Below, piece by piece: positions 55,422-59,442 of a DNA stretch of 59,900 nucleotides. Source of the DNA: Acidobacteriota bacterium (GTDB lineage Bacteria > Acidobacteriota > Terriglobia > Terriglobales > Acidobacteriaceae); contig JAJXZT010000067.1 in assembly GCA_021779935.1 (NCBI GenBank), positions 1 through 59,900 of the forward strand. Direction: 5' to 3'. The translations under genes and the position numbers were made by a program. The notes beneath the pieces were generated by a model that was not told the origin of the DNA, made no database searches, and saw only the letters and a program-made list of their open reading frames with translations. Every line of letters starts with the position of its first letter. Positions within the stretch are counted from its first letter, which is position 1.

Positions 55422-55466
55422 TGGTGGACCTAGTCGGGATCGAACCGACGACCTCTTCCATGCCAT
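55422..55466 (-). other. att site: 3' fragment of a tRNA-Ala(GGC) gene
   Basis: Read on the minus strand: anticodon loop with GGC, 3' stem GGAAG, variable loop AGGTC, T stem GTCGG, loop TTCGATC, CCGAC, acceptor TAGGTCC, A, CCA, in exact tRNA lengths (5, 5, 5, 7, 5, 7, 1, 3). No D arm, 5' acceptor half or matching 5' anticodon stem exists upstream. Integrases of tyrosine type recombine at the anticodon-loop-to-CCA segment and leave such a copy, so this is read as one end of an integrated element; the intact tRNA and the integrase should lie beyond the other end. Confidence 0.75.
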
Positions 55467-55614: not shown

Positions 55615-55649
55615 AAAAATGCACGCTAACGGTTGGAATGTTAGCGTGC
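55615..55649 (-). terminator. Terminator of the three-gene island operon
   Basis: Minus strand GCACGCTAAC, loop of 9, GTTAGCGTGC then ATTTTTAC: a perfect 10-bp stem 27 bases after the cold-shock-domain gene. Confidence 0.85.
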
Positions 55650-55675
55650 AATAGTGTGATGCGAATCGTCAGATT

Positions 55676-56680
55676 TTACTCAGTGCGAACCAGCTCGGCA
55701 CGACTGGAGGCCTTGCCCTTCTTTCGATCAAAGCTGTCGACGATATTGAAACTGACTTTGGTTCCTGGAGCGAGTGCCGAGCGCGGTCCTTCAAAATCTC
55801 GCAACTGAAAATAGATATCAGTTCCGTCGTCTGTCTTAATGAAACCCGCTCTGTCATCAAATAAGGACTTTACCCGCCCGAGAGATCTTGGACGGCCCCC
55901 AGTCATTTGTTGACCCCAGAAAGGTTGCAGTTCGCGCATGTACGCCGACGAAGGCTGCACCTCAGATTTTCCCTCAGTACAATTAATTTGGTGGGAGGTG
56001 GCCAGCTCGCGCACATCCTCGCGAATCCTGCCACCGACCTCCTTTTGCAGAGCGATATGAAGCAGCAAGTGTTTACGTGCGCAGTCACGATCACCCTTTG
56101 CATCCAAAACTCTCGCCATGAGAATGAAAAGCCTGACCTTTGCCCCCGGCTTTCCAGTCATGGTGCTGGCCTTCACGCAAGATAACCACGACTGCTCCAC
56201 ATTCCCTTGCTGAAATTCCATTTCGGCGATCAGATGCTCCATGTACCATTCCGGTTTCATGCTGACTAACCGGCGCAATTCCTTACACGCAGCATCCGTT
56301 TGTCCCGAAGATCCAAACGCCCTTGCTCGGTAATATGAGAGCCAAATATCGTAGGCTCCCATTCGGGTGGGAAACGCCACCAATTCTGAATTGGCAAAAT
56401 CGATGCACTTCGCAAATTCGCCGGCAAAAAGGAGGGCTTTACAGCGGCGAAGTGCATATGTCTCGCTCTCGCTCGCTGAAACCGCGCCCTCCTTTGGCTT
56501 GACGAAAGGCGAGGGCTTCGGAGCTTCAAGCAGTTGTGGGTTCAGGCGGTTGAGATAGGAAAGTGCCTGCCGAGCTTTTTCTTCCCCTCCAGATGCCACC
56601 AACAGCTTGCTAATCGTTAGTACCACCCAGGTGAAAGGCGAGAATTTCTCTTGCTTAGTCAATGCGAGAATTCGGTCCAC
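55676..56680 (-). CDS. Helical-repeat protein with C-terminal cold-shock-like domain
   Basis: A 334-residue protein, third gene of an island operon. Residues 1 to about 255 are helical and TPR-like (CKALLFAGEFAKCIDFANSE, RAFGSSGQTDAACKELRRLV, LMARVLDAKGDRDCARKHLL). The last 70 residues match a cold-shock/OB domain: GRVKSLFDDRAGFIKTDDGT, then DIYFQLRDFEG and APGTKVSFNIVDSFDRKKGK, with the aromatic GFI and IYF RNA-binding strands kept. It may bind single-stranded nucleic acid through the CSD and partners through the repeats. GTG 56680 overlaps the previous gene by 22 bases. I do not know a named family with this layout in full. Confidence 0.75.
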   Translation of the reverse strand: MDRILALTKQEKFSPFTWVVLTISKLLVASGGEEKARQALSYLNRLNPQLLEAPKPSPFVKPKEGAVSASESETYALRRCKALLFAGEFAKCIDFANSELVAFPTRMGAYDIWLSYYRARAFGSSGQTDAACKELRRLVSMKPEWYMEHLIAEMEFQQGNVEQSWLSCVKASTMTGKPGAKVRLFILMARVLDAKGDRDCARKHLLLHIALQKEVGGRIREDVRELATSHQINCTEGKSEVQPSSAYMRELQPFWGQQMTGGRPRSLGRVKSLFDDRAGFIKTDDGTDIYFQLRDFEGPRSALAPGTKVSFNIVDSFDRKKGKASSRAELVRTE

Positions 56681-57423
56681 GGATGCAATTGCCTGATCAA
56701 GTCCGGAATTAGCTTCGTCGCCTTCTTCCTCCGGAGTGTCGCCGGCATTTTGGAGCGGCTTGATGTGAATATCGTATTCACACCAGCCTTCAAGATTGTC
56801 AATGACCGCGAAATGTGTTCCCCGTCAATGCCGCTATCGAAGACATGGTCGTGAAGCCCTGCATCTTGCAAATCGAGCGCGGCCTGATGGGGAACATAGA
56901 TGTCGATGTTCGGGTATCTGGTCAGAGCTGTCTGAATCAGATCTAAAGAAGAACTTGCCTTATCCTGCAATAGTTGAACATGATCGTGGTCCGGTCCCTC
57001 TATGACGATGTCATAGCCTGGTTGGACTGAGCTTTCTGCCAGTCTCGCAACGTAGCCGGTAGGTAAATTCCCGTGATTCAAATACTTGACGTGTTGTAGC
57101 TCAAACAATTTTCCCTTGAGGGCCGAAAAAATACCTCTCAGTTCTTCGGGGTCTTCATGGGCCTGAACGAATTCGACAAAATTGCCAACGTGCGGAAATT
57201 GCAAATGAAAGGCTTCGAGCACCTGCGGGTCGATATCCGCCTCGGTAAGGCCCCCCGAACTTATCGCATGCAGAATATCCGCAAGCGAGGTTCCGGCCAG
57301 CGTCGCACTGTCCAGCCATTCCTGATCGGAGAGCCGTGGAAACAGGACTTCACGCCAATGCTTCTTCGGAACTCCAAATCGCTCGCGAGTCTGGCTTACA
57401 AATTGCGCCAAGTTGGAGGTCAT
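56659..57423 (-). CDS. Putative PD-(D/E)XK-like nuclease-fold protein
   Basis: A 254-residue protein, second gene of the island operon. A helical N-terminal half (residues 1-95) precedes GKLFELQHVKYLNHGNLPTG, then QPGYDIVIEG, then LLQDKASSSLDLIQTALTRY. The ordered Glu (KLFE), Asp (PGYD) and Gln-x-Lys (QDKAS) fit the core of PD-(D/E)XK nucleases, with QxK in place of ExK. A C-terminal ILKAGVNTIFTSSRSK may pack on the core. The fold is inferred from motif order alone. ATGA overlap with the gene before and 22-base overlap with the gene after. Confidence 0.65.
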   Translation of the reverse strand: MTSNLAQFVSQTRERFGVPKKHWREVLFPRLSDQEWLDSATLAGTSLADILHAISSGGLTEADIDPQVLEAFHLQFPHVGNFVEFVQAHEDPEELRGIFSALKGKLFELQHVKYLNHGNLPTGYVARLAESSVQPGYDIVIEGPDHDHVQLLQDKASSSLDLIQTALTRYPNIDIYVPHQAALDLQDAGLHDHVFDSGIDGEHISRSLTILKAGVNTIFTSSRSKMPATLRRKKATKLIPDLIRQLHPWTEFSH

Positions 57424-57734
57424 TTCAACACCGCGACAACGATGGCTATGATTGCAGCAATCGCAGCCGTGATCGCGATGCCCACGGCGAACCGCGCTCG
57501 CTTCTGAGCCTGTCTAATTCTCAGTTCTGCCGAATCGCGGGCCTCTTCAAGAGCGAGTATGCGGATGACCATAGCTGAGTAGACAGCTTCCATCTCGCTT
57601 TGGACCTCTTCCATGTTCCGAGCGATTTCGGCACCCGTTACCTTGTCCATTGCGCCTTTGTAGCCTTCCAGAAGCTGTCTCCCAGTGTTCTTTACAGCCT
57701 CGGTGCCATGATCAACCGACGTTTTGATATCCAA
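57420..57734 (-). CDS. Small membrane-anchored coiled-coil protein
   Basis: A 104-residue protein, first gene of the island operon. Residues 30-75 are heptad-like (ARNMEEVQSEMEAVYSAM, RDSAELRIRQAQKRARF), then one C-terminal membrane helix (AVGIAITAAIAAIIAIVVAV) ending in Lys: a tail-anchored layout with the coiled coil in the cytosol. It could tether the two other products to the membrane. Start is TTG 57734 with AGG 9 bases upstream, so the exact start is not sure. Confidence 0.6.
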   Translation of the reverse strand: MDIKTSVDHGTEAVKNTGRQLLEGYKGAMDKVTGAEIARNMEEVQSEMEAVYSAMVIRILALEEARDSAELRIRQAQKRARFAVGIAITAAIAAIIAIVVAVLK

Positions 57735-57932: not shown

Positions 57933-58547
57933 ATGGCTGAGATGCAGAAAACCCGCGTGCTCGACCTTCTGAAAACCAAGGGAATGCTTCGCCTAAAGGA
58001 TTTCCTAGCCGAAGATATCGGCCAAGAGACGCTGGCGCGCCTAGTTCGTGAGGGACAGATTGTCCGACCCTCCCGGGGACTCTACCAGCTTTCCGATGCC
58101 CCTATGGATGCCAGCCAAATTCTCGCCGAGGCCGCCGCACTCGTGCCCAAGGGCATCGTCTGTCTCATCTCCGCTCTTCAATTTCACCAGCTCACGCTTC
58201 AAATGCCTTCCTCGGTGTGGATGGCAATCGAGCGCACGGCATGGAAGCCGACGATTAGCTACCCATCCATTCGATTCGTCCGTTTCAGCGGGTGGGCTCT
58301 TACGGAAGGCATCGAGCGGTACTCGATTCAATCGTGCCATGTCCCCATCACCGACCCTCCTCGCACAATTGTGGATTGCTTCCGGTATCGCAACAAAATC
58401 GGCATTGACGTAGCAATGGAAGGACTGCGTGAAGGCATCCGGCAGCGCAAATGCACGCCGGATCAGCTTTGGCATTATGCAAAGAAGGCGCGGGTTTGGA
58501 CGATCATGCGCCCGTATGTAGAAACAGAGGTGGCACATGTCTCGTGA
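57933..58547 (+). CDS. abiEi: AbiEi antitoxin (type IV TA system)
   Basis: A 204-residue protein with an N-terminal winged helix (RVLDLLKTKGMLRLKDFLAE, LARLVREGQIVRPSRGLYQL) and the AbiEi C-terminal domain (ITDPPRTIVDCFRYRNKIGI, then AMEGLREGIRQRKC). It counters AbiEii and represses the operon. It overlaps abiEii by 11 bases. AbiE gives phage resistance by abortive infection and helps keep mobile DNA. Confidence 0.9.
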   Translation: MAEMQKTRVLDLLKTKGMLRLKDFLAEDIGQETLARLVREGQIVRPSRGLYQLSDAPMDASQILAEAAALVPKGIVCLISALQFHQLTLQMPSSVWMAIERTAWKPTISYPSIRFVRFSGWALTEGIERYSIQSCHVPITDPPRTIVDCFRYRNKIGIDVAMEGLREGIRQRKCTPDQLWHYAKKARVWTIMRPYVETEVAHVS

Positions 58548-59442
58548 GGTCCGCAATATCGGTGCATCGGTACGAGCCAGGCTTCTTGCGCGTGCGCGAG
58601 CGGAAAAGACCGATTATCAAATTATGCTGACGCGCTATGTGCTGGAGAGATTGCTCTACCGGCTCAGCATATCCGCCCACCGTGACCGGTTCATCCTGAA
58701 GGGAGCAATGCTTTTTGCGACTTGGCTTCACGACCCGTTCCGGCCAACCCGTGATCTGGACCTGTTGGGCTATGGCGCAAATGACACAGAGTCAATCGCA
58801 AACACCTTCAAGTCCATTTGCGGGACCGAGGTTCCAGATGACGGCGTGAATTTCGATATTGACGGCCTTACTGCGGCACCGATTCGAGAAGAGTTGGAGT
58901 ATGGAGGCGTTCGAGTACAAACCTATGCCGTCATCGACGGAGCACGCATCCCGATCCAAATAGATATCGGCTTTGGCGACATTATCACGCCGGGGCCGGT
59001 CGAGATTGCCTACCCCGTTCTCCTCGACGATCCTGCGCCGCATCTCCGCGCCTACCCGATGGCAACCGTCGTGGCAGAGAAATTTAACGCCATCGTCGTG
59101 CTTGGAATCGCCAACAGCCGCCTCAAAGACTTCTATGATCTCTGGCTCATTTCACGCACGTTTGAATTCGAGGGAGCTGAACTCTCTGCCGCGGTGCAGC
59201 GGACTTTTGAACGCCGTGAGACTCCGATGCCTGCCGATGTCCCAACCGGGCTGACCAGGCTCTATGCGGAGCAGTGGGATGCGCGCTGGAAAGCCTTTCT
59301 CGGACGTGAGCATATGAACGCTGCACCAGCGGAACTGAACCAGATTCTTGAAGACTTGCGAAGGTTTCTGGTTCCCCTGGCACCCGCGCTCGGCACCAAG
59401 TCCCACTGGCCTGCAGGTGGCCCCTGGTCAGATCGGGTATAG
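58537..59442 (+). CDS. abiEii: AbiEii nucleotidyltransferase toxin (type IV TA system)
   Basis: A 301-residue nucleotidyltransferase. FILKGAMLFATWL then RPTRDLDLLGYG is the GG/DxD-type NTase motif (the usual GG is here KGAM; RDLDLL holds the Asp pair); IQIDIGFGDII gives the third Asp, and VAEKFNAIVVLG with SRLKDFYDLWLI completes the DUF1814/AbiEii pattern. Such toxins modify tRNA or GTP-bound targets with nucleotides. It is coupled to abiEi and appears complete. Confidence 0.9.
   Translation: MSREVRNIGASVRARLLARARAEKTDYQIMLTRYVLERLLYRLSISAHRDRFILKGAMLFATWLHDPFRPTRDLDLLGYGANDTESIANTFKSICGTEVPDDGVNFDIDGLTAAPIREELEYGGVRVQTYAVIDGARIPIQIDIGFGDIITPGPVEIAYPVLLDDPAPHLRAYPMATVVAEKFNAIVVLGIANSRLKDFYDLWLISRTFEFEGAELSAAVQRTFERRETPMPADVPTGLTRLYAEQWDARWKAFLGREHMNAAPAELNQILEDLRRFLVPLAPALGTKSHWPAGGPWSDRV

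Follow-up and report, generated by a model that had tools for sequence, protein, structure and literature searches.

Three adjacent minus-strand genes of an acidobacterial genome, here called A, B and C, are best explained as a membrane-tethered candidate nuclease effector, A-B, that a deletion joined to C, an orphaned type III CRISPR accessory gene; we put the probability of this reading at roughly 55%. The preliminary description of the locus had proposed a new, conserved three-gene system. Across the genomes searched such a trio is unsupported: none of the 17 further B loci shows a C gene next to B (read by eye; the contigs of L007 and L009 end inside B), no full-length C was found in 15 other genomes, and B itself belongs to a known candidate family. 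The genes and their surroundings in the window (the whole stretch of DNA analysed, 59,900 nt, which is all of contig JAJXZT010000067.1 of Acidobacteriota bacterium GCA_021779935.1, our contig C53 of genome G000) are as follows.

58537 to 59442, plus strand: AbiEii neighbour, by Pfam and PADLOC profiles
57933 to 58547, plus strand: AbiEi neighbour, by Pfam and PADLOC profiles
57420 to 57734, minus strand: gene A, 104 aa, predicted coiled coil and C-terminal membrane anchor
57429 to 57485, minus strand: hydrophobic putative anchor of A, residues 84-102, Kyte-Doolittle mean 2.91
56659 to 57423, minus strand: gene B, 254 aa, PD-(D/E)XK-like, PDC-M72B family
56800 to 57288, minus strand: core of B, the confident part of its model, residues 46-208, with E108, D138, Q153 and K155 invariant
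56784 to 56826, minus strand: proposed junction; B homology stops here and C homology starts in a different frame
55676 to 56824, minus strand: open frame of C, with no standard start from 56824 to 56680 and coding-like codon usage in the part tested (56824-56500)
55676 to 56680, minus strand: gene C as annotated, 334 aa, TPR and cold-shock domain
55709 to 55879, minus strand: cold-shock-like domain of C, residues 268-324 (Pfam CSD 1.5e-4, below cut-off; PADLOC CSD_V 8.1e-7)
55620 to 55650, minus strand: terminator-like hairpin downstream of C, an inverted repeat followed by T's
55423 to 55453, minus strand: 3' part of a tRNA-Ala, an att-like scar

Much of the earlier picture of the locus was borne out. 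The three open reading frames lie on the minus strand where they had been placed, with overlaps of 4 bases (ATGA) between A and B and 22 bases between B and C, and their G+C content is 0.51-0.54 against 0.58 for the window. An att-like tRNA scar on one side and an AbiE system on the other are likewise present: the scar consists of the 3' portion of a tRNA-Ala, a whole tRNA being absent there, and AbiEi and AbiEii stand upstream of A-B-C in divergent orientation. The defence context ascribed to the locus is also supported. The contig ends at 59900, so that the far side of the island lies outside the sequence. The scar has three near copies elsewhere in G000, two of them within whole tRNA-Ala genes and the third at a contig end. 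The terminator of the preliminary description was recovered as a terminator-like hairpin: 55620-55650 holds an inverted repeat whose 11-bp arms match perfectly, T's come after it on the minus strand, and with its flanks the element folds at -18.5 kcal/mol (z -5.9), though it is absent from the output of a mechanical terminator scan.

B had been read as nuclease-like, and profile comparison and structure prediction of this 254-residue protein agree with that reading, though the fold scores are middling. B matches the PADLOC candidate family PDC-M72B at E 1.6e-11; the 10 others scanned match the same family (11 of 11 B proteins, out of 18). In Pfam, NCBIfam and PHROGs, nothing matched B up to E 1. 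The E...D...QxK order is invariant in 15 of 15 aligned sequences (an alignment that leaves L057-L059 outside) at E108, D138, Q153 and K155, with glutamine in place of the second acid of the PD-(D/E)XK motif. In the predicted model, the confident core of residues 46-208 runs as helix 92-116, strands 125-128, 139-142 and 148-154, helix 160-169 and strand 174-177, which is the order alpha-beta-beta-beta-alpha-beta; mean pLDDT falls below 50 after about residue 210, and residues 16-44 are low too. Foldseek placed Ecl18kI on top at E 0.037, with unrelated folds lower in the list and nothing at E <= 1e-3, and structural comparison returned Bax1 (Z 7.8 over 86 residues), the influenza PA endonuclease (Z about 6) and PaqCI (Z 5.8), no Z value reaching 8. 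We take these four proteins to be PD-(D/E)XK enzymes. The Pfam model Endonuc-MspI was found in one of four B relatives scanned, at 1.5e-4 and below its cut-off; the active site of MspI, presumably, is also without the second acid. Sequence comparison of B with the PDB gave no convincing match, and rows for ribosomal eS1 were taken as chance. Overall, we assign B to the PD-(D/E)XK family, with a site that looks intact.

The small protein with a membrane anchor was also recovered: a single strongly hydrophobic stretch of A spans residues 84-102 and ends two residues before the C-terminus. Under a fixed rule for tail anchoring (a single hydrophobic segment no more than 8 residues from the C-terminus in a protein of at most 340 aa), only 5 of 237 open reading frames qualified in 13 B-holding sequences, a count that leaves L006, L007 and L011 outside, and all five lie directly upstream of B. 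The A protein of L008 failed this rule by having two C-terminal hydrophobic segments. More broadly, a coiled coil with a hydrophobic C-terminus stands directly upstream of B in eight of the 17 other loci (L006, L007, L008, L009, L018, L019, L057 and L058, the anchors of L057 and L058 judged by eye), a further eight (L010-L017) have a B with an N-terminal extension in place of A, and L059 has, by eye, a coiled coil without an anchor. Since distant lineages have either an A-like gene directly before B or an N-terminally extended B, A-B looks like a real, partly catalogued candidate module.

Homology among the A proteins is shown only in part. A profile built from three A proteins of the order of Alicyclobacillus ranked the window's A first of 429 window open reading frames (E 9e-4), a match carried by a short motif spanning residues 25-45, and scored the A of L018 above it. 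The A proteins of L006, L007, L008 and L009 gave no significant match to this three-sequence profile, BLASTP gave no alignment between the window's A and that of L019, and for A itself PHROGs returned two weak matches and NCBIfam none. It is thus the architecture of A that recurs, and the A proteins may be only partly homologous.

We count 18 B loci, namely the window, L006-L019 and L057-L059. A search near G000 found B in 4 of 200 genomes, G000 included and one match weak; a species collection gave 14 loci, two of which are contigs already found near G000; the PDC-M72B model matched once in 297 genomes of the phylum, in the window itself; and searches around three relatives gave 4 of 59 genomes (2 of them new and strong), 3 of 296 (none new and strong) and 4 of 300 (one new and strong). 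L006 is taken to be the contig of G126, and L009 that of G124 (same length and sequence), each counted once; both genomes belong to the same order as G000. Weak or partial matches in G089 (39 residues), G894, G1162, G1381 and G1358 are not among the 18. Searches of plasmids, phages and viral contigs found little or nothing of B.

The neighbours of B point toward defence, on the understanding that they were picked for scanning by eye and with no control, and are therefore context rather than measured enrichment. In G126 A and B are embedded together in a type III-A CRISPR locus with Cas10, Csm5, two CARF-HEPN proteins and Cas1 identified by profile and further csm genes and cas2 recognised by eye; this is the only such setting among the 17 other loci. 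In the Rhodoferax locus L010, B is followed, directly adjacent, by an ankyrin-type PDC-M72A protein, and in L008 a PDC-S04/Fic-type gene comes after B. Type I restriction-modification genes are found no more than about 1.5 kb from B in five of the 17 other loci (L010, L013, L015, L017 and L058). A LeoA-like, dynamin-family GTPase is encoded directly after the B relative of a Myxococcales bin (L011, 1266-3161), and in L059 (3633-4568) a 311-aa protein whose gene overlaps the end of B has zinc-ribbon-like cysteine motifs by eye and no PADLOC match at 1e-6.

If this module works as its parts suggest, A, a tail-anchored coiled coil, would hold B at the inner membrane, and in many relatives the hydrophobic C-terminal region of B, or its long N-terminal extension, would provide a second hold. 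A hydrophobic segment follows the core in nine of 12 B relatives tested; it is not present in L011, L012 or L019, nor in the window's B. B, as a candidate nuclease, would probably cleave the DNA of an invader close to the membrane, or that of the host after a partner signals infection. The partners of B differ between genomes, which suggests different triggers. One may go further and see in A-B a portable PD-(D/E)XK effector, tethered to the membrane and coupled in different genomes to different infection sensors. We hold this extension less likely than not and advance it tentatively; the sensors proposed under it, which are just as conjectural, would be cyclic-oligoadenylate signalling in G126, the ankyrin protein of PDC-M72, the LeoA-like dynamin of L011 and, in the window, C as a TPR/cold-shock RNA sensor acquired from type III CRISPR.

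C had been described as a TPR-like protein ending in a cold-shock domain. Both parts are supported, DUF7017 and TPR_14 matching above the Pfam cut-off and the cold-shock domain below it. C matches the PADLOC family PDLC01170, which combines TPR with a cold-shock-like domain, at 4.1e-39; NCBIfam gave weak matches below its cut-offs, PHROGs none, and sequence comparison with the PDB a weak cold-shock match only. A TPR-CSD family was reportedly described in a 2018 survey of CRISPR neighbourhoods.

When the 15 B-bearing genomes, G000 included, and G089 (whose B match is doubtful) were searched with a model of C, the only full-length match was in G000, and G525 gave a weak, partial one; for L057-L059 the analysis covered the neighbourhoods of B. 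Over the phylum, C was found in 11 of 247 genomes including G000, and four of the 10 others hold near-full-length relatives at 26-31% identity, the rest matching only in CSD or TPR parts. PDLC01170 itself, searched in 250 relatives, matched G000 and two further genomes in partial, TPR-only form, and in 299 genomes of Rhodoferax's phylum it gave three partial matches, to CSD or TPR only. Plasmids yielded little or nothing for C, and viral contigs one weak match.

Three of the four long C relatives (L070, L072 and L073 of L070-L073) have CRISPR-cas or CARF genes as neighbours: in L070 these encode a pair of CARF proteins and Cas6, in L072 Cas10 and a CARF-HEPN protein, next to an array of four repeats, and in L073 a CARF-HEPN-CARF protein and Cas1, with two repeats. 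Among these loci Cas10 was seen in L072 only, and L070 and L073 are type III-like, marked by their CARF proteins; L071 is a 7.5-kb contig whose neighbours fall outside the scan. By tblastn, B is not encoded in any of the four stretches. Long TPR-like open reading frames were noted by eye in the CRISPR loci of C relatives at L072 (14224-16239) and L073 (5142-7109), and in L026 (579-1926), a masked, repetitive region, a small cold-shock-domain open reading frame directly follows a nucleotide-cyclase-like one, also by eye. G000, a draft that is 99% complete, gave no match to the one Cas10 model searched (PF22335). C would have its origin in type III CRISPR-Cas loci, as a TPR/cold-shock protein that was probably an accessory binding RNA or single-stranded DNA, and it appears to have been orphaned in G000.

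The border between B and C also bears on this history. The preliminary description gave the two genes overlapping ends; the 22 shared bases are real, but they probably do not mark a designed border. Upstream, the C frame stays open as far as 56824, with no standard start above 56680. In a codon score built on 32 other long window open reading frames, the C frame reaches +10.8 bits over 56824-56683 and the B frame -6.2 to -7.3, so that the C frame is favoured by 17.0 bits; among overlapping control windows 41 of 5012 reach such a difference, and among stop-free ones (alternative frame open) 40 of 1478, and the foreign composition of the locus makes codon usage a weak guide. Above its start, the C frame encodes a peptide that aligns to a single W..Y....P stretch shared by all four C relatives, a fit equalled by 29 of 2000 shuffles, whereas the B-frame tail fits the C relatives no better than chance would (1014 of 2000). 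Upstream extension of C gains only 0.9 bits with the C profile and 1.7 bits with PDLC01170.

B and C are both shorter than their relatives at the ends that face each other. B homology ends at about residue 213 (near 56784), and C homology begins near 56785, followed in the C frame by an acidic, linker-like stretch. The four long C relatives have 438-470 aa against the 334 aa of C, including about 90 extra N-terminal residues. In view of the C-frame codon usage, the pLDDT drop and the longer C relatives, the last 41 or so residues of B and the GTG start of C may not be natural. We consider it more probable than not that DNA was lost near 56785, removing the C-terminal region of B and the first TPRs of C; such a deletion would have joined a shortened B to a shortened C out of frame. 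Against the explanation as a whole stand the middling fold scores, the slight match of the B tail to B relatives, the small gains from extending C, the three of 12 B relatives without a hydrophobic segment, the A proteins of L006-L009 that fall outside the A profile, the unreliable model of C (its open frame has pLDDT 44) and a CRISPR link for B that is confined to one genome.

The same junction could alternatively mark a single PD-(D/E)XK-TPR-CSD protein, one that a frameshift produces or that only a wrongly called base in the assembly divides, and its TPR-CSD part would replace the membrane tail of B as sensor. The abutting homologies, the switch of codon usage from one frame to the other at the junction and the acidic linker-like stretch would all suit such a fusion. 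We nevertheless find it doubtful, because neither TPR nor CSD occurs in any of 10 B relatives scanned with PADLOC or four scanned with Pfam, because inspection by eye revealed no slippery site, and because long terminal parts are missing from both partners, which argues for loss of DNA rather than of one base.

Less probable still is that the three genes are intact and act together, with C sensing nucleic acid, B cutting, A anchoring and translation coupled at both overlaps. The tight operon, with its ATGA and 22-base overlaps and common terminator-like hairpin, speaks for this, as does the B-frame tail (residues 214-254), which matches the C-termini of B relatives slightly better than chance (25 of 500 shuffles). 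It is opposed by the absence of C beside B in all 17 other loci (two of them cut inside B), by the roughly 90 residues that C lacks and the hydrophobic part of nine of 12 relatives that B lacks, and by codon usage that favours the C frame in 56824-56683. Most improbable of these alternatives is that B, though related to PD-(D/E)XK enzymes, binds nucleic acid without cutting it or fails to cut for some other reason, and that the role of the locus lies outside defence, as QxK instead of (D/E)xK and the want of a convincing sequence match among solved structures might suggest, given that E108, D138, Q153 and K155 are all invariant, that one relative matches MspI weakly and that the neighbours are defence genes.

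Among known systems, the closest is PDC-M72, which by the names of its PADLOC models comprises an ankyrin-type protein and the family of B, the tail-anchored A not being among the names seen. The window resembles it through B, and the Rhodoferax locus through B and PDC-M72A together; the window differs in that no PDC-M72A lies beside B, the only match in G000 being on contig C9 whereas the window is C53. PDC-M72 is named in no paper found in our literature search, which covered titles and abstract openings and gave no description of the A-B pair or the A-B-C trio. No named system with this gene order came up, in agreement with the earlier statement, but B had already been catalogued. C is like PDLC01170 in sequence and in the company its longer relatives keep (Cas10, CARF, Cas1 or Cas6 in three of four loci), and unlike it in being N-terminally shorter, placed after B and in a genome without a PF22335 match. 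Three other candidates were dropped: a type V retron (CSD matches only), a toxin-antitoxin system (no such profile match in A, B or C) and a programmed frameshift (slippery site not seen by eye).

A functional parallel is offered by SNIPE, which the portion of its report drawn on here describes as a membrane-bound GIY-YIG nuclease that cuts phage DNA during injection at the inner membrane, has variable membrane-targeting regions, and uses its membrane anchor both to position the nuclease and to protect host DNA (PMC13190303). By analogy, A-B may be a membrane-held nuclease as well. It differs from SNIPE in that A, B and C have no DUF4041 or GIY-YIG Pfam match at E up to 1, that the anchor is on a separate protein, and that the function of A-B is a predicted one. 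CoCoNuT systems, according to the part of their description used here, combine coiled coils, PD-(D/E)XK and CSD-like domains (PMC11090510), and A-B-C has a coiled coil, a PD-(D/E)XK-like and a CSD-like part; unlike in CoCoNuT, no McrB-like GTPase or McrC match was found in the five genes scanned (A, B, C, AbiEi and AbiEii). The section of PMC12669027 that we cite counts both PD-(D/E)xK DNases and membrane proteins as type III effectors; nothing like A-B was seen there.

In sum, an operon that looks tidy can be a deletion scar, a point of weight for gene trios put forward as new systems on the basis of single genomes. PDC-M72B, an uncharacterised candidate family, gains a recurrent tail-anchored coiled-coil partner and putative catalytic residues, and in one genome it stands within a type III-A CRISPR locus, which suggests a DNase effector anchored in the membrane. 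Should A-B prove to be a portable effector, it would represent a new class of membrane-anchored nuclease effector, type III CRISPR included.
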